Part shown: positions 8,501 through 20,403 of the stretch, piece by piece
Position numbering within the stretch: the stretch's first letter is position 1
How the letters are laid out: every line of letters begins with the position of its first letter
Source: a virus
DNA length: 22,348 nucleotides
Direction: 5' to 3' (one strand)
IMG/VR virus record: IMGVR_UViG_3300034108_000114
Span: 1 to 22,348 of that record
Position numbers and translations under genes: made by a program
The notes under the pieces: generated by a model
Told to the model about the DNA's origin: nothing
Database searches by the model: none
What the model saw: only the letters and a program-made list of their open reading frames with translations

Positions 8501-11500
8501 TTTAGCGTAAGTTTCATCTAGGACTGCTTTAATTTCATTTTGTTGTTGCACTGCGACAGTTAGGTCTGCTACAAAAGCTCCTGATGCAGCACCAACCTTT
8601 TTAGCAGCTTCTTCTAACAACGATGTTGCTGTAAAATATCCAGCAACTGCTCCGACAAGTGTTCCAGCAACTAGTCCCACTGCGGTTCCAAGACCTGGGA
8701 TTATGCTTCCAATACCAGCTCCTGCAAGAGCAAATGCTGCAACTGTTCCTCCAGCGGCTATGCCTCGGCCAGCTTCTGTATCAAGTCCCGCACCGAACAT
8801 GTTTCCTACACTAAGAGGGCTGCTTCTTGAATTTGCTAACTGAGCGTTCATGGCTTCTTTCGACTGCTCCATATTGTCTATAGATGTAGCTGCTAATCTT
8901 GTAGCAACAACTAGCTCATTGTTTTTTAAGTCTTCTCCTCCTGGACCAATTAGCTCTGTTATTTCACCTCTGACTTTTATTCCAAAAGATGCATCGTTCA
9001 GCTGAAGACCTATTTCTGACGCAATGCTGCCTGCCTGATCTGCAGATAGTGCCCCAGAAACAACGGACATTGACAGCTGGCTAGAAACTGCCTTTAGTGC
9101 AGATGCCGTGTCTCCACCACTATTAGCAACTTCTGTTTTCAAGTCCTTGAGCAATTCCTGTCCAGCCTCGTCTTGAATGTATGATTCACCAAAGGTAGCT
9201 TTTCCTGGAGCAACTTCCATTAATCTAAATCTGTTCTCTCTTCGTTTTTCAGCTTTTTCTCCAGCAGTTACGTTTCCAGCAAATTCTCCAAGCTTTCTGA
9301 TTGATTCCGTACTAGCACCAATAGACTGTTGCAGCCTTATGGCTTCTTTCTGAGCGTTTTGGTAAGCATCGTTTACTTTTAGAATGGCCATAGTCATTGC
9401 CCCGATCATGGCTACTGCCGCTACAAAAGCACCAGAGAGTGGACCCTGAATAAAAGAAGCTAGGGTGGTCATTGCCATAATAGGTCCAGCAATCTGTTGA
9501 GCGGTTTCTCCAACTACTCCTGGTATCATAGATGCCGCACTAGTAACCATGGATGCTATCATTCCAGTTTGGGCTAATTTTCCACCAAATTTTTGTATTT
9601 GTTCTTTTTCGGTTAGCGGCCTCTCAACGCCATCGACACCCTGTCCACCAGTTCCTGCTGCAGTAGTGTTTGTTGGGGTGGACTGATTTGTTGGGGTGGG
9701 CTGAGCTTTAGGACCAGCGTAATACTTACTATTTGGGTCTGTCTTTGGATCATAAACAACTTTTCCAGTTTTTTGATTAACTACCTCAGCATTTCCAGCT
9801 ATAGCCTGGCCCAGCTTACTCTTGGCCCAACCTCTTGCCATGCTGTCAGAAATGTTATCACCAACACTTGTTCCAATAACCTTTGCCTTCTCTAAAAGAC
9901 CCTCTCCTAATTGCTGAGCACCATCTTTAAATATTTGCCTAAAGCCTTTTTTATTTGGAGAAATTCCATCGCCATCAAACGCATTGGACGGACTTCCAAA
10001 TGGATCTGGACCTACAGGTGGTGCAAGAGGGTCCGAGACTCTAAACGGATCATTGCCTGGATCATATCCCTCGTTATATCCTGGAATATTTCCAGAAATC
10101 ATAGAACTAATTAGTGGGCCATACTTTTCTGCCATAGCAGCTGGAATAACAGCTTCTCCTGGGGAGAGCATGGCAGGGACAACGTCTCCTGCCCCCTTTG
10201 GCCCTGGGACAGAGACAACGCCCCTGGCATAACCAACTGGCTCCTTAACCTTTGGAGCCTTTGGCTTTGCAATTTTTACGTTAGAATGTAGTGTGTGGAA
10301 TTTTCTCCAGTCAACGGCGAGACCTGCTTCAAGCCTTCTAACCATATCGTCATACATACCAACGTCTGCTGGGTTTGTTAGCTTAAAGGATGCGATAGTT
10401 TCTTTAAGTCTTGGAAGAACCCTTTGGATCTCGCCAATCATTCTTTGGTGATATTGCTCTGGAGTTAGTCCAGCCATCAATCCTAGGGTAGCCTCTGCAA
10501 AAGCCCTCTTTGCACCGCCCTTAATTCCAAGAAGATTTATAAGTGCTTGGTCTTCCATGGATGGAAGGTTGCTTGAGTATTGCCTTAGCCCAGAGGCCCT
10601 GTCAAATACTCCAGCAGGCCCAACGTCTGCAACAACATCTCCGTAAACATTGGCTGCAGATAAGTCTTTGTCGGCACGTAGTAATGATGCAGCAAGCTGT
10701 CTAAAGTATTGCTCTTCATTGAACACACCCATTGGCTGAGTGTTGACAAATGTTGGATCCAGATCAGACTCTAATGCCAAGAACCTTCTTTGTCTTGTAA
10801 CATCCATTGGGTCTCTCATTACAACTACCCGTTGTTCTGGTGCCTTTAGTCCGTGAGCCTGTCTAGCAATTGCTGTGGCTCTCATTTCTGCCATGGCTGC
10901 AGTTTCGTCCATTACTGGCTTTACGAATACTTGCTTTGCTCCCTTTTGATATACCCCGCCGAGACCAAAGATTGGGAAGCTGTGCCCAGAAGTTGGAGAG
11001 ATCTGGTGACCATATTCTGTTGGAGGGGTATTTGCATAACTACTCTTTTTAAAGAGTTCGTATATTTCATCTCCTGCTGTGCGACCCTTAGAAACAGATT
11101 TTGCTGACTTTGGCATTCCAAGGAATACGCCCTTCATAAATCCTGGGATATTTCCAGCAATCATGTCTTGAATAAATGGTGCGTATTTTTCTGCTACCTT
11201 GGCTGGAATAACCGCTTCGCCAGGAGATAGCATTGCTGGAACAACGTCGCCAGCACCCTTCGGGCCAGGCACCGAAAGAGTTCCTCTTGCAAATCCAGTT
11301 GGTGCACCTTGAGCAGCGGAAGCTCTTCTAGGCCCCATAACTTGTGTTCCTGCAGAATTTATTGCAGTTGCAGCTATCTTAAACTGGTTAGCAGTTTCTG
11401 AAACCTCTAAGCCAAGGTTATTTGCTGCAGTCTTTAACTCTTCTACATTTTTTGTTGCAGCTTCGGTAGCTGTGGAAAGATTTGTGTTTTCGAGTGATTG

Positions 11501-14500
11501 CTCTTTAACTTTTTTAGTTGCAATTTCAGATGTTGTAGCTAGCTCATTTAACTGGTCTACATCAAAATTTCTAGTGCTTTCTGTGTCGTAAACTTCTTTT
11601 AGTGGTGCATTATTTAAGCCAACATTCTTCTTAGCTTGGGATCTTCTTCCCTCTGGTCGTGCCCTTAAGCCAAGTTCTTCTGACCTAACTTCTGCAACTG
11701 TTTGTGCTGACGTATCTAGAGCATTTACCACATTTGGAGCTGATGACTGAATATTTGCTCTGACCTTAGACCAAAGTTCTTCTACGCTAACTGCAGCTAT
11801 TTTTGCATCCCGTAGTGCAGCAGCGTCTTCAAACTTATCTAGAACCCTTGTTCCCTCTGGAAGCGATGCGATTAAGCTATCAAACTCTTGATTTAGTCTT
11901 GCTGTTTCTTCTGCTAAAAGCTTTGGGTCTCCCCCGCCCATTTGAATTGATGGATCCCATTTGTTATCTCCAGCTTCTCGGAAAGCAGCCTGGAACTCTT
12001 CTCTACTAACTCCCTCTTTTGTATTTAGTCTTGAGTTTATTATTGGATCAAAGTTAGACATTCCGAAACCAGATTTTAGACTTACCATTGCATCTTGGTT
12101 TGCCTGCATAGACTTGGTCTGTTTACCTGTTAGCTGTATCTCGCCCTGCTCTTGTAATCTAAGTGCTTCTCTTGCACTCATTTCTTTTCCGCCACCAATG
12201 TGTGCAAGGGCCTTTGCACCCTTGTTGTTTGGGTCGTACGGAACTCTGGCTCTTACCTGTTTTACAAGCTCAGCGGAATCGGAAACAATCTGAGTTGTTT
12301 CATTTTTTAGAGCATCAATCCTCTCAATAAGAACAGCTTCAAGCTCATTAAACTTTTGTAAGGCTTCCTCTGTTCCGTCTCCTGCTGCTTGGATAGCAGA
12401 TGAAAGAATTCTTCTTGCATTGGTTTTACTAACGTCTGCTTCTGCTAATCTTTCTACAAGCTGTGTTCCTCGGCCTGGAAACTTTTGATCTATTTCTGCT
12501 CTTGAATCTGGTATGGCTTGGTTTCTAGGAGGAACCCAATTTTCATAATCCTGAAGCCTAGCTGATTTTATATCTACGTTAGATTTTCTATATCCTGGGA
12601 TATTGTCTGCAACAATGCCCGCAATGAGTGGGCCATACTTTTCAGCTTCTTTAGCAGGAATAACCGCTTCGCCTGGTGACAACATTGCAGGAACAACATC
12701 TCCTGCCCCCTTTGGACCAGGTACAGAAACCACACCTCTTGCATATTGCTGAGGAGGTCCTTGCGGGGCCTGAACACGCCTACCCCCCATAGCGTTAGTC
12801 GATATAGTAAGCTCTGGCCTAGCTCTTGCAACTGGTGCGACTGCACTTAGGGCATTTGCTGCAATTACTGCTTGCTGGTATGCAGCAATAAGTCCTTGGA
12901 CTGCCTGTGTTTCAGCGGTAAAGATTTGTGCCAACTGGGCATGTGATTGACCCAACGATGAGGCAACTGCAGCAGCTTCTAGCTGTTCTTGGGTCAGGTA
13001 CTGGGTAGAGTTTGCTAAGCCGCTAGAGTCTCCACCAAGTTTGTTATAAAATAGCCTAAGAGCATTAAAAGCTTTAATAAGGTTTCCGACACCGTTAGCA
13101 ACAAGACCTACGGTCATCAGTACGACTGGGGCAACAAGACCCAAAACTGCAATTAGCCCTGTCACAAAAGCTTTAGAGCCATCGCTCATTTCGTTGAACT
13201 TCTTTAGCATCCCCGTAACAAATTCAACAATTGGAGTAATGAGTTTTAAGAACTGTTCTCCTAATGGAGCTATAGCAACTGTAATATCTTCTATAGCTTT
13301 TTGGAATTTAAATGCTGGAGAGTCTTCTACCTTTTTTAATTCTCGATCTGCCAGTACCGCTAATTCTTCGGCAGTTCGTTGACCTAGCTCTAAAACCCTA
13401 TTGGCCTGACTACCTTCCTTAATTACGTTCTGGAAAAGTGTTGATAGACGTGAGAACTGAAATTTTCCGAATAGTTGCTCAATTGCTTGTGCACGATTAA
13501 GAGGATCTAGGTCGTCTAGGGCCTTTGCAAACTGTACAACAATTCCCTGAACGTCTCCCTTATTGGCGTCGACAATGCCCTTGATGTTAATACCAAGACT
13601 GGCCAAAAACTCTGAAGCTTTTGCAGAAGGATTGATAAGAGATGCAAGACCAGACTTTAGTGCGTTAGCACCCTCAGATGCGTTAATTCCACCTTCCTTC
13701 ATGGCTGTCAAGAAGAAGGCTAGGTCTTCAACGTCGCCACCTAGCTGCTGGACTACTGGACCAGCTTTTGGAATAGCAATAGTTAGGTCTTCAATTGCAG
13801 TAACAGTTTGGTTTTCAACTGCGTTTAAAAAGTTAATTTTTGAAGCTAGATCTTCGGCTGCAATACCAAAAGCATTTGTAATAGAAATTGTTGTTTCTAA
13901 AGCTTCTTGCTGTTCTACCTCACCCAATACCGCAAGCCTTGTGGCTTGTGTTACCTGAGACATAAGTGCCACACCAGCAAAACCTTGCTGAGCTAAATCT
14001 GCTGCAAGACCCAAAGTTTTTTCAACTGCAACGCCATACTTAGTAAACTCATTAGCTAGGTCTCTAACTTCTTGCAACGCTTTTTCTGTTTCACCAGAAG
14101 AAGTAAACATCTCACCGTAAACACGTTTAAATCTAACAGCCTGTTTCTCAAGCTCCATAAAGCTTTGTGCGGCTTTAGTTCCTAGCAATGCAAGCGGTAG
14201 TGTAAAACCAACCATAAGTTGGCGACCAGCCCACTGGACATTCTTACCCCAGTTAACTAGATTGGTTGTTCCTTGCTTAATTAGCTGGTTCAAAAGCATT
14301 TGCTTTTGTGCAGCTATAGCCGTTTGAGTTCCCAGGTTTTGCATGTCAAGTGCAAGTGGACGGACTTTAATTGCTTGTAGTGCTCCATTGGCATCTCGAC
14401 CCATCTTAATGTACTGGGTTTGAAGAGTCTTTACTCTTTCGGTTGCAACCTTTTCAATTGTTGCAAACTCGGATTTAAATAATTTTCCAAAGCTTTGGGT

Positions 14501-14822: not shown

Positions 14823-15143
14823 TTACTTAAGATTTGTTAGAAGAGAAGCGTCAGATAGCTTTACGCCAGATGCCTCTTCAACAATCTTATAGACAGTTGG
14901 AAGATCCAAAGTTTCTTCCAATGCCTTCAAGTCTCCAGCAATTTCTGGGTTGTACTGTTGCATAGCAATCTGTACACACTCCATAAGTAGGCTGAGTGAC
15001 TTGTCATTATCCTCTGCTACTGCAGCAATGCCCTCGAATTTCTTCATGAACGGTCTGAGTAGAGAGATCTTGAGTGGTCTTACCTTAATCTCTGTTCCAT
15101 TGATTAGTTTGATTACTTTTTCTTCATATACTTCTGTACTCAT
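14823..15143 (-). CDS. Tail assembly chaperone, short form (gpG-like), 106 aa
   Basis: It lies directly upstream of the tape measure, the fixed place of tail assembly chaperones, which coat the tape measure while the tube polymerises. It aligns over its full length with the N-terminal ~105 residues of the chaperone at 15928-15206: INGTEIKVRPLKI against IDGTEVELSPLKI, IAMQQYNPEIA against VAMKQYYPKIA, LDLPTVYKIVEEASGVKL against MDLQGVYKVLEFAAGIKI. I estimate about 40% identity. It lacks the C-terminal T-like extension and ends at LLTNLK. It has its own extended -10 promoter and a Shine-Dalgarno-like GAAGGA about 11 bases before the ATG. Product level could thus be set independently of the long form, replacing the usual frameshift ratio. 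Confidence 0.85.
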   Translation of the reverse strand: MSTEVYEEKVIKLINGTEIKVRPLKISLLRPFMKKFEGIAAVAEDNDKSLSLLMECVQIAMQQYNPEIAGDLKALEETLDLPTVYKIVEEASGVKLSDASLLTNLK

Positions 15144-15205: not shown

Positions 15206-15928
15206 CTACTTCTTTTTGGTCAAGTCTTCGTATCCAAGACCCATGCCAATGCCAAAACCAGCCTTTTGGGCATTAACCCCCTGAAGCGACAAGACGTCAT
15301 TTCCGCTTGTAGCTTTGCCACCACTAAACACCCTAGCTTTCATTTGTTCCCATTTATTTTCTGGGGCCTGTCCGCTACTCTTATCCAGATCTACGCCCTG
15401 AATAGCAGCTAAAAATTTCTTTTCTTGGTAGTCAAGGTCTCTTCTTGTTTCTAGGCTGGCCATTAACTCTGGAATAGACATCTGTATTTCTAGCTCTTCA
15501 TAATTTTTCCAAATGCCTAGCAAGAACACTTCGGCTTCTAGTTTGGCTAAGTCTAGGCTTTCCCAAGAGGAGGACCCGCTTTCTTTTGCTTGAGATATTG
15601 CTTGGGCCTCTGCTTGGTCTTTGACCGTATCTTTTGACTTTTCATTAATCTTGATTCCAGCAGCAAACTCTAGAACTTTGTATACGCCCTGGAGGTCCAT
15701 AGAGTCTTGTAAGTCTTCCATATTTGCAATTTTTGGATAGTATTGCTTCATTGCAACTGCTGCACAATTTGATAAAAATACTATTGCCTCATCATCATTA
15801 TCTGCTGTTTTAACTAGAGTAAATGCATCCATAAACTCTCTTAAATATTTTATTTTAAGCGGAGACAGCTCAACCTCTGTCCCATCGATTAGTGTCACTT
15901 TCCCTGTTTTGTATACTGTAGTTGCCAT
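15206..15928 (-). CDS. Tail assembly chaperone, long form (GT-like in one frame), 240 aa
   Basis: The N-terminal ~105 residues are a gpG-like chaperone domain, paralogous to the short protein at 15143-14823. A linker rich in K, E, Q, A and S (about 105-128) leads to a T-like helical domain: LAKLEAEVFLLGIWKNYEEL, then ELMASLETRRDLDYQEKKF and LAAIQGVDLD. In most siphoviruses this second part is reached only by a programmed -1 frameshift; here it is read in one continuous frame. The C-terminus (GIGMGLGYEDL) is glycine-rich. I chose the ATG at 15928. The longer frame to a TTG at 15952 would begin inside the terminator T-run. No Shine-Dalgarno exists before this ATG; a -10 element ends seven bases before the A, predicting a leaderless mRNA. 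Confidence 0.88.
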   Translation of the reverse strand: MATTVYKTGKVTLIDGTEVELSPLKIKYLREFMDAFTLVKTADNDDEAIVFLSNCAAVAMKQYYPKIANMEDLQDSMDLQGVYKVLEFAAGIKINEKSKDTVKDQAEAQAISQAKESGSSSWESLDLAKLEAEVFLLGIWKNYEELEIQMSIPELMASLETRRDLDYQEKKFLAAIQGVDLDKSSGQAPENKWEQMKARVFSGGKATSGNDVLSLQGVNAQKAGFGIGMGLGYEDLTKKK

Positions 15929-15940
15929 ATTATAAGTATA
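15929..15940 (-). promoter_or_regulatory. -10 element predicting a leaderless transcript for the long tail chaperone
   Basis: The minus strand reads TATACT-TATAAT-ATG. If TATACT (15940-15935) is the -10 hexamer (-12 to -7), the +1 base falls exactly on the A of the ATG at 15928. TATACTTAT is shared with the major tail promoter at 16723-16731. If the second hexamer, TATAAT, were the -10, transcription would start inside codon 3, which makes no sense for this gene. No Shine-Dalgarno is present. Confidence 0.6.
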
Positions 15941-15943
15941 CCG

Positions 15944-15980
15944 TAAAAACAAAATTACCCAGCCTAAAAAGACTGGGTAA
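15944..15980 (-). terminator. Intrinsic terminator after the major tail protein gene
   Basis: The minus strand shows TTACCCAG, a 10-base loop, then CTGGGTAA: a perfect 8-base stem followed directly by TTTTGTTTTT. It starts 20 bases after the major tail protein stop and ends just before the next promoter. Confidence 0.9.
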
Positions 15981-16748: not shown

Positions 16749-17339
16749 TTATTTAACAAATCTAAACAGAGTATGTGGTTCAATGTCTGAGCCTAAAAAG
16801 CTACAATCTATTACCCTAGGATCAACGTACCAATCCTCAAAGTTTGACACGTTGTGAGCAACTATCTTGTAGCCATGACTGAGCAGAAAGTCGTAGGCCT
16901 CTGCTTGATACTTATCATTGTCTCCACCTACATATCTGTCATGCTCAAAGGTAATTACTGAATATCGGTAATTCATAGGCATGTTTAATAAAGCTTTCAG
17001 GCTTTGCTGAGCTGGCTCGATGTCAACCTGTAAATAATCAATTTGCTTTGGCCATTTGTTTTTAATAAAATAGGGCAGCAAATCGTAGGTTGTCGCATCT
17101 ACTGCTAAGCAGGGGTTTCTTCTAGACTCATTGTAAAGATCTGCCCTGTTTTGAATTATCTCTAGGGACACTCCAGACCAGTTATATTCAGTTTCTAACA
17201 GATAGGTGTTTGAATCCTTGGTAGCGTGATATCCACCAATTTCAACGTAGTAGCCATTTCTTTTTTCTTTTAGCTGGTTTAGCACAAATGATTCCTGGGC
17301 CGCCTGACTATTACTGTTTGGGATTATTTCCATTAACAT
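16749..17339 (-). CDS. FkbM-family SAM-dependent methyltransferase, 196 aa
   Basis: This is a class I methyltransferase of the FkbM (Methyltransf_21) type, which O-methylates sugars or other small groups using SAM. Visible family elements are GYYVEIGGYHATKDSNTYLLE (residues about 28-48; SAM-binding motif I, normally EIGAYDG), WSGVSLEI (family form W-GvlvEp, acidic residue binding the SAM ribose), QIDYLQVDIEPAQQSLKAL (form iDYLslDiEGsE) and YSVITFEHDRY. All core blocks are present, so it is probably active. It sits alone between the tail terminator-like gene and the major tail protein, with no Shine-Dalgarno before its ATG; a second ATG lies two codons on (17333). Substrate is unknown: virion protein, virion glycan or host surface sugar are all possible. 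Confidence 0.8.
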   Translation of the reverse strand: MLMEIIPNSNSQAAQESFVLNQLKEKRNGYYVEIGGYHATKDSNTYLLETEYNWSGVSLEIIQNRADLYNESRRNPCLAVDATTYDLLPYFIKNKWPKQIDYLQVDIEPAQQSLKALLNMPMNYRYSVITFEHDRYVGGDNDKYQAEAYDFLLSHGYKIVAHNVSNFEDWYVDPRVIDCSFLGSDIEPHTLFRFVK

Positions 17340-19094: not shown

Positions 19095-19981
19095 TATAAG
19101 ACCCCAAGTCTAGTAATAGACTTAGCATACTTTGAAAGTATCTTGTCTACTATAATGTTTCCTGTTCCCTCGAATACCCTGCTATCAAACTGTAGCCTAA
19201 ACTGATCTGTGTTATAAGCAGAAATATATCTTTGGTAGTAATCATTTCTGCCACACTTGATGTCATCAATCAGCAGAGTTGCTGCTCTAACGATATCTGA
19301 GGGCACTGTGGGGTATCCCACTTCTAAAACAAACTTGTAGTCATATCCGTTAGGAAAGCCTCGTAGAGGTGGCAGGTTGGCATCTACAAGATCCGAACCT
19401 GCTGCTGGCAAGATTAGGGGAGCTTGCTCATTTCTGTTGACTCTATCGGTGGCAACTTCGGTGATTGCAGTTTTATCTCTAGTTATTTCATAGGTGCGGT
19501 CTGTAACCAACTCATTGTTTTCGTATACAGATAAAATTCTTTTTGCATCCCACCATAGAGGAATATAGTCTGCTCCGAGACCTACCACCTCTAAGGTTTT
19601 CTTTTTATAATAGAATCCTTCTGAGATAACTGAGTCAATAACTGCTCTTGCAATTTCCTCATATTTGGTATATTCTGCAATTTCTGAGGCAGTTGTCCCA
19701 AGAGTTGATGGATCTACATATGGCCTAATAATTCCATATGTCTCATCGTGAATGATGTCGCTAGATGCATCTGTAATAACAACACGGTAATCTGTGTCAT
19801 ACTTACTAGACAGACCTATTGTCCAAACATAGTTTGCATTGTCTGTTACAGTTTTTGTTGTATAAGAAAGATCTGTCAAATCAGTGATTGTTGCCACAAA
19901 AGCCTCATTTGAAACATAGGCAGTTGGGATTGTAAATGTAATATTTACGTCTTGATATGGTAGACCCCTTAAAATTTCCAT
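19094..19981 (-). CDS. Head-tail connector (adaptor) with N-terminal beta domain, 295 aa
   Basis: The protein docks under the portal ring. Residues about 1-88 form an immunoglobulin-like beta region (VNITFTIPTAYVSNEAFVA; DTDYRVVITDASSD). A helical region follows (TASEIAEYTKYEEIARAVID). Then comes a beta part with GADYIPLWWDAKRI, and a C-terminal helical connector segment: PSDIVRAATLLIDDIK, RFQLQ-like RLQFDSRVFEGTG and VDKILSKYAKS. The last part resembles gp6/gp15-type connectors, where a helix pair ends in 'tG---iD-iL--y'. Typical adaptors have about 100-150 residues, so the N-terminal half is an extra decoration. One-base TAATG overlaps occur at both ends. Confidence 0.72.
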   Translation of the reverse strand: MEILRGLPYQDVNITFTIPTAYVSNEAFVATITDLTDLSYTTKTVTDNANYVWTIGLSSKYDTDYRVVITDASSDIIHDETYGIIRPYVDPSTLGTTASEIAEYTKYEEIARAVIDSVISEGFYYKKKTLEVVGLGADYIPLWWDAKRILSVYENNELVTDRTYEITRDKTAITEVATDRVNRNEQAPLILPAAGSDLVDANLPPLRGFPNGYDYKFVLEVGYPTVPSDIVRAATLLIDDIKCGRNDYYQRYISAYNTDQFRLQFDSRVFEGTGNIIVDKILSKYAKSITRLGVL

Positions 19982-20403
19982 TAAATTCCGTACTCTCCAG
20001 CAACTTCTTCTGGGGTTGCAATTCTAATGTGGTTGCGTGTTGCCCACTTATCTGCAGCTTGTCTTGTCACAATGTTGTATCCCTTGGAAACCTGACCGAC
20101 TCCAGACCAAGTAACATTTTTTGTAGAGTAAATTGCAACTGTATTTTTTTCCTTAGATACTTTAGAATTAACCGCCTCTTTTTTCTCTGCACTGGCTGAG
20201 CCAATTACATTTTCTTCATTAGAGGTAACAGATAGGTTTGGGCTAGTAGCCATCTTATCTGAAGATATTACATCATTACGTTCTTCTTGAGCCTTTACGG
20301 CTTCTTTATATTTTTCTACAAGTTGATGTGGAATTAAGGCTTCTCCGTCTTCTAACTTAGCAAGAGGTACATCTTTAAATTTTGAATTATTGTTTTCGGA
20401 CAT
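19981..20403 (-). CDS. Conserved small phage protein with GEALIP motif and C-terminal NVTWSGVG domain, 140 aa
   Basis: Function unknown. The C-terminal ~50 residues (VAIYSTKNVTWSGVGQVSKG, then YNIVTRQAADKWATRNHIR and ATPEEVAGEYG) form a small compact domain that I associate with short proteins found after the capsid gene in actinobacterial phages. The N-terminal part has LEDGEALIPHQLVEKYKEAV, matching the tape measure repeat (SPGEAVIP....AEKY). The middle (about 45-85) is low-complexity, rich in S, N, E and K. A good Shine-Dalgarno (AGAAGGAGA) precedes the ATG, and an extended -10 promoter lies just upstream. It is the first gene of the head-tail joining operon and shares one base with the next gene. 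Confidence 0.8.
   Translation of the reverse strand: MSENNNSKFKDVPLAKLEDGEALIPHQLVEKYKEAVKAQEERNDVISSDKMATSPNLSVTSNEENVIGSASAEKKEAVNSKVSKEKNTVAIYSTKNVTWSGVGQVSKGYNIVTRQAADKWATRNHIRIATPEEVAGEYGI

Follow-up and report, generated by a model that had tools for sequence, protein, structure and literature searches.

Does the tape measure protein (TMP) of an uncultured phage carry a kinase and, if so, what might such an enzyme do there? The question is raised by a 22,348-base stretch of viral DNA, analysed here over its whole length and referred to as the window, in which a sequence-only reading had picked out a compact enzyme-like block inside the TMP and likened it to HipA/PI3-4K-like kinases. The answer we favour, with a probability of about 0.55, is that the block is a tail-borne, exchangeable, ATP-dependent enzyme of a kinase-like type that modifies a host component at or after entry.

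The tape measure protein and its phage

The window is a complete viral record, possibly a piece of a larger genome, and encodes a siphovirus-like structural module on its minus strand. The ORF that carries the block (Table 1) matches PF10145 at aa 247–445 (E 1.7e-27, Pfam) as well as PHROG families of tape measures (the best at E 3e-100). Besides this N-terminal domain there is the gene order of a TMP locus, with the major tail protein first, then the chaperones, the TMP and the tail tip, and the tail gene order of the window is the same as that of phage LukeCage. Two adjacent minus-strand ORFs upstream of the TMP gene (14823–15143 and 15206–15952) are 40% identical over 100 aa and appear to be duplicated tail-assembly-chaperone-like genes, the longer one with a C-terminal extension. 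Elsewhere on the same strand, a 196-aa ORF in the tail gene cluster (16749–17339) looks by eye like an FkbM-type methyltransferase and has no Pfam match, and a small ORF in the head region (19981–20403) contains 'LEDGEALIPHQLVEKY', which is similar to the TMP repeat 'LSPGEAVIPAKEAEKY'.

The closest isolates by TMP N-terminus (~30%) are the Stanwilliamsviridae, represented by the Streptomyces phages LukeCage and Tomas, and Streptomyces phages are also the closest isolates by major capsid protein (~42%). Six Streptomyces phage TMPs that we checked (~2130 aa) have no kinase-like domain. The gene whiB, which marks actinobacteria as well as the phages that infect them (PMC6802176), was found in 16 of the 25 related long records, and a search of 14 control genomes was positive only in C. 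glutamicum. The group thus appears to consist of actinobacteriophages, an assignment that applies to the relatives and not to the 22-kb window itself.

Table 1. Features of the TMP gene and of its kinase-like domain (nucleotide positions in the window; residue numbers refer to the TMP)
Feature	Position	Strand	Remarks
TMP ORF, 3091 aa	5525..14800	-	Carries the kinase-like domain
Kinase-like domain, aa 1225–1520	10241..11128	-	Homologous block in 198 sources; AlphaFold2 model; fold matches
K1294, predicted beta3-type ATP-binding lysine (VFVKP)	10919..10921	-	120/120; model strand 65–71
E1305, alphaC-type glutamate	10886..10888	-	118/120, Q in 2; model helix 75–91
Catalytic loop D1377-K-D1379-L-S-A-A-N1384 (D-x4-N)	10649..10672	-	D1377, D1379, L1380 and N1384 120/120
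D1392-V-G1394, predicted DFG-equivalent metal-binding DxG	10619..10627	-	D1392 and G1394 120/120
D1400, non-conserved	10601..10603	-	D in 28/119; the other residues include S, K, Q, G and E
PGE repeat copy 1	12589..12745	-	
PGE repeat copy 2, bounding the kinase-like domain upstream	11137..11293	-	
PGE repeat copy 3, bounding the kinase-like domain downstream	10075..10231	-	
Another exchangeable module, aa 720–1165, lying between PGE repeats 1 and 2	11306..12643	-	

Predicted fold, catalytic residues and relationship to known kinases

Structure prediction, one of the checks proposed together with the original observation, gave a confident kinase-like model of the domain. AlphaFold2 reached a mean pLDDT of 85.3 and a pTM of 0.85 for the window domain, and 89.1 and 0.87, respectively, for that of relative L280, which is 43% identical to it. 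Both models place the lysine on a strand and the glutamate in the next helix; two strands then lead to the hinge, which is followed by a helix, the D-x4-N loop, a hairpin, the DxG and a helical C-lobe. This modelled order of strands and helices is kinase-like, with D-x4-N following an alphaE-type helix, and aa 1225–1520 are predicted to form a discrete, self-contained domain with a kinase-like fold. In fold searches, both models had CtkA chains as their top PDB matches (E values of 1.3e-3 and 1.9e-4 at prob 1.00). Of the other PDB matches listed, nearly all were protein kinases, and HipA (3dnu) and CylM, a lanthipeptide synthetase with a kinase-like fold, also appeared. The TM-scores are modest (0.35–0.48 for the best matches), which places the domain at a distance from other members of the kinase fold, and its predicted two-lobed, protein-kinase-like architecture is assigned at the superfamily level. 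That AlphaFold and Foldseek coincidentally cast a new fold as a kinase, as the low TM-scores and the lack of kinase sequence homology could suggest, is highly improbable: two confident models of diverged members share the same top match, the other matches listed are nearly all kinases, and invariant residues occupy kinase positions in kinase order.

To follow these residues we collected the family from IMG/VR. A single-sequence scan found 42 loci that encode the domain with 49–94% identity to the window; two scans guided by a profile yielded 202 and 391 confirmed stretches, the best 80 of each being taken further; and a scan with the TMP N-terminus added more diverged domain copies, down to 35% identity. 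The conservation alignment comprised 120 homologous sequences, 35–94% identical to the window domain. In addition to the positions listed in Table 1, V1293 and P1295 on either side of the lysine are invariant, as are G1272, S1274 and G1282 in the glycine-rich segment of the N-lobe, and the hinge-region pair E1344-S1345 is kept in 119–120 of the 120 sequences. The kinase set of beta3 Lys, alphaC Glu, catalytic Asp, Asn and DxG Asp is conserved and, since the catalytic residues are invariant across the family, the alignment rules out a chance assembly of motifs. With dN/dS values of ~0.06–0.10 in comparison with its closest relatives, the domain of the window is under purifying selection. In the L033–L037 group, the alphaC glutamate is replaced by Q (motif ALSQQRAT), the sole departure seen at the canonical catalytic positions.

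The sequence-only reading had named K1294 in VFVKPV, E1305, D1377/D1379 and N1384 in DKDLSAANV, and D1400 in VFDRASG, and all these residues are where it placed them. Its expectation that K1294, N1384 and D1400 would be conserved held for the first two, both of which are invariant, whereas D1400 varies freely (Table 1) and can be dismissed as the DFG aspartate. That catalytic role passes to the invariant D1392 in the sequence ADVG: because D1392 and G1394 are invariant and D1400 is not, we take D1392-x-G1394, eight residues past N1384 and connected to it via a short predicted hairpin, as the DFG equivalent.

TMPs are mainly structural and nucleotide binding by the domain is a prediction from its residues, so that a pseudokinase might be considered, that is, a degenerate fold retained as a structural or binding module such as a tail plug or a host-protein binder. 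Pseudokinases, however, usually lose some of the catalytic positions, which in these 120 diverged sequences are invariant or nearly so, and we regard this alternative as very unlikely. With good confidence, we infer a catalytically competent domain that would bind ATP and carry out phosphotransfer.

Sequence comparisons link the domain to none of the known families. Searches of Pfam, PHROGs, NCBIfam, PADLOC and PDB sequences gave no significant match to it; the Pfam profile of PI3/4-kinases (PF00454) matched neither the window domain nor any of 61 family members, and the HipA family (PF07804) likewise showed no Pfam match to the domain. The profile search suggested for the HipA link produced no significant score: a single profile–profile comparison with 65 HipA sequences had an E value of 0.043, and one of 100 column shuffles scored higher. 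A sub-threshold alignment with HipA pairs VFVKP with K181 and the catalytic loop with D309/N314, and sets 'E...IAR..HGL..P' (the alphaC/beta4 segment) on HipA 'E...LAKELGLNVP'; as, with the larger HipA profile, the column-shuffled control reaches the score in 1 of 100 cases, we treat it as only suggestive. Membership of the HipA or PI3/4-kinase families by sequence is not supported, no search having given a significant match, and the lack of a family match together with the non-significant HipA score points to a new kinase-like family that is not HipA by sequence. What stands of the proposed HipA/PI3-4K-like assignment is the fold, the K/E/D-x4-N set and a HipA-type likeness; in its modelled anatomy the domain resembles a CtkA/HipA-type kinase, but membership of either family is unsupported by sequence. 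A search of 84,980 species genomes with short peptide patterns, which would miss distant relatives, found no stand-alone or bacterial relatives, and tblastn of three diverged members against 50,697 isolate phage records returned nothing credible at E values up to 10.

The reaction might also be something other than protein phosphorylation. SelO and SidJ have kinase-like folds with other chemistry, a precedent that counts in favour of a kinase fold performing AMPylation, glutamylation or small-molecule phosphorylation, which would still make it a delivered effector. CylM, found among the structural matches, uses its kinase-like fold as a lanthipeptide dehydratase, sequence comparison places the family in none of the protein-kinase families, and the K/E/D/N/D set fits either reaction. 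Both fold searches are nevertheless topped by CtkA, which is a kinase. We consider such chemistry unlikely, although it is, together with a role in assembly (see below), the strongest rival of the reading that we favour.

Distribution and exchange of the domain

The domain was found only inside the TMPs of environmental phages. It lay within a large ORF in all 198 sources checked (many of these loci overlap on the same contigs, and they contain 100 distinct domain sequences), the shortest complete ORF being 1790 aa long, and each of the 22 long carrier records had a single copy, located in the TMP. One TMP ORF (L283, 1229 aa) stops within the kinase domain (aa 1003–1229), so that the copy is either broken or misassembled.

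Within TMPs, the domain is accessory. Among those that share at least 64% identity with the window TMP over the N-terminal 560 aa, it is present in 27 and absent from 40 complete proteins (redundant entries kept, window included); a further 14 TMPs of this set are incomplete. Complete carriers have a median length of 2961 aa versus 2674 aa for non-carriers, and the difference of 287 aa (p 5e-5) corresponds to about one domain, which fits an insert that lengthens the TMP and does not take the place of ruler sequence. These numbers bear on the idea that the enzyme acts late in the infected cell, on tail or chaperone proteins or on the TMP itself during assembly. The TMP would be made in the cytoplasm together with the tail proteins, where ATP and substrates are at hand. 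However, the 40 complete proteins without the domain indicate that it is not required for tail assembly in itself and, since such close relatives build their tails without it, the assembly role is disfavoured and in our view improbable.

The TMP sequence bears out the earlier placement of the block between copies 2 and 3 of the 'GPKGAGDVVPAMLSPGEAVIPA' repeat. The three copies of this PGE repeat are 71–76% identical to one another as DNA, and across the family the domain lies downstream of PGE repeat copies, often between them. In several relatives it is better conserved than the TMP N-terminus, with 81% versus 58% identity in L063 and 82% versus 58% in L046, and in relatives with a well-conserved domain the adjoining modules are 32% identical or absent. 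For example, the module at aa 720–1165 is only ~32% identical in L001 and L003, whose kinase domains are 93–94% identical to that of the window; in L001, the flanking N-terminus and the kinase are both 94% identical. The same module follows the kinase in L014 and L290 and occurs without it in L282. Other TMPs have different inserts at the place of the kinase, two of them with weak DUF3626 matches: these are the kinase-less L219 and L232, whose inserts at aa ~700–1450 give E values of 1e-4 and 2.7e-4, below the family cut-off. These comparisons show that neighbouring modules are exchanged between PGE repeats. A weak internal copy of the aa 720–1165 module is seen in the window TMP at about aa 1558–1685.

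Proposed role and comparison with known systems

If the domain is a host-directed enzyme, as we favour, it would be incorporated into the tail along with the rest of the TMP, using K1294 and E1305 for ATP, D1379 as the catalytic base and N1384 and D1392 for metal. A general view in the field holds that the TMP may exit the tail and extend across the envelope of the host (PMC10721106). On leaving the tail, the TMP would bring the domain to the cell envelope or the cytoplasm of an actinobacterial host, and there the domain would modify a host component, probably by phosphorylating a protein or a small molecule, at or just after entry. We see about an even chance that the domain is delivered with the TMP at entry and then modifies a host component. 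A point against this reading is that a folded 300-residue domain must fit the narrow tail tube. The domain would be one of several interchangeable cargo modules between PGE repeats. A broader and more tentative suggestion is that the TMPs of uncultured environmental actinophages might serve as modular injection cassettes, in which interchangeable PGE-flanked enzyme domains (kinase, DUF3626-like and others) are delivered with the genome and alter the host during entry.

If active, the domain would represent a kinase family that has no recognised sequence relatives and is so far confined to phage TMPs, and it would add ATP-dependent, possibly host-modifying enzymes to the cell-wall hydrolases already associated with TMPs. 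Module exchange between fixed repeats offers a testable route to more tail-delivered effectors in phages of uncultured bacteria.

Among known kinases, CtkA of Helicobacter pylori (3akk, 3akl) matches both models over nearly the full length (prob up to 1.00) and is of similar size (279–288 residues), with 10–13% identity and TM-scores of 0.32–0.40; it is a stand-alone bacterial protein, whereas the phage domain is part of a tail protein. The HipA family, exemplified by E. coli HipA, shares with the phage domain the order K / E / D-x4-N / D, and the spacing of D1379-x4-N1384 equals that of D309-x4-N314. The distance from the asparagine to the following aspartate differs, being 8 residues in the phage domain and 18 in HipA (N314 to D332), and the phage domain lacks the HipA N-terminal domain. 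Whereas the HipA family is also characterised by a HipB-type antitoxin, the phage domain sits in a structural protein, and the search turned up no gene encoding it on its own. Among predicted viral structures, the best matches include the unnamed viral protein A0A516M4V9 (E 9.2e-5) and the PI3/4-kinase-annotated A0A6J5MJB0 of an uncultured Caudovirales phage (E 1.9e-4); both are 14–19% identical to the phage domain.

Some TMPs hold enzyme domains, namely a cell-wall peptidase or transglycosylase, that are dispensable for length determination. Those domains are likewise embedded in the TMP but attack peptidoglycan at entry, whereas the domain of the window has an ATP-dependent, kinase-type predicted fold. 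The Alt ADP-ribosyltransferase of phage T4 is a preformed, virion-carried enzyme that enters with the DNA to modify host targets; the logic is similar, although Alt is a separate head protein with ADP-ribosyltransferase activity. The sequence-only reading knew of no standard description of a kinase embedded in a tape measure, and we likewise found none in the literature searched (subscription papers were mostly outside its scope), where papers containing both terms deal with other genes. Enzyme-bearing TMPs and virion-delivered host-modifying enzymes are thus each known; their combination, and the kinase-like family itself, appear to be new.
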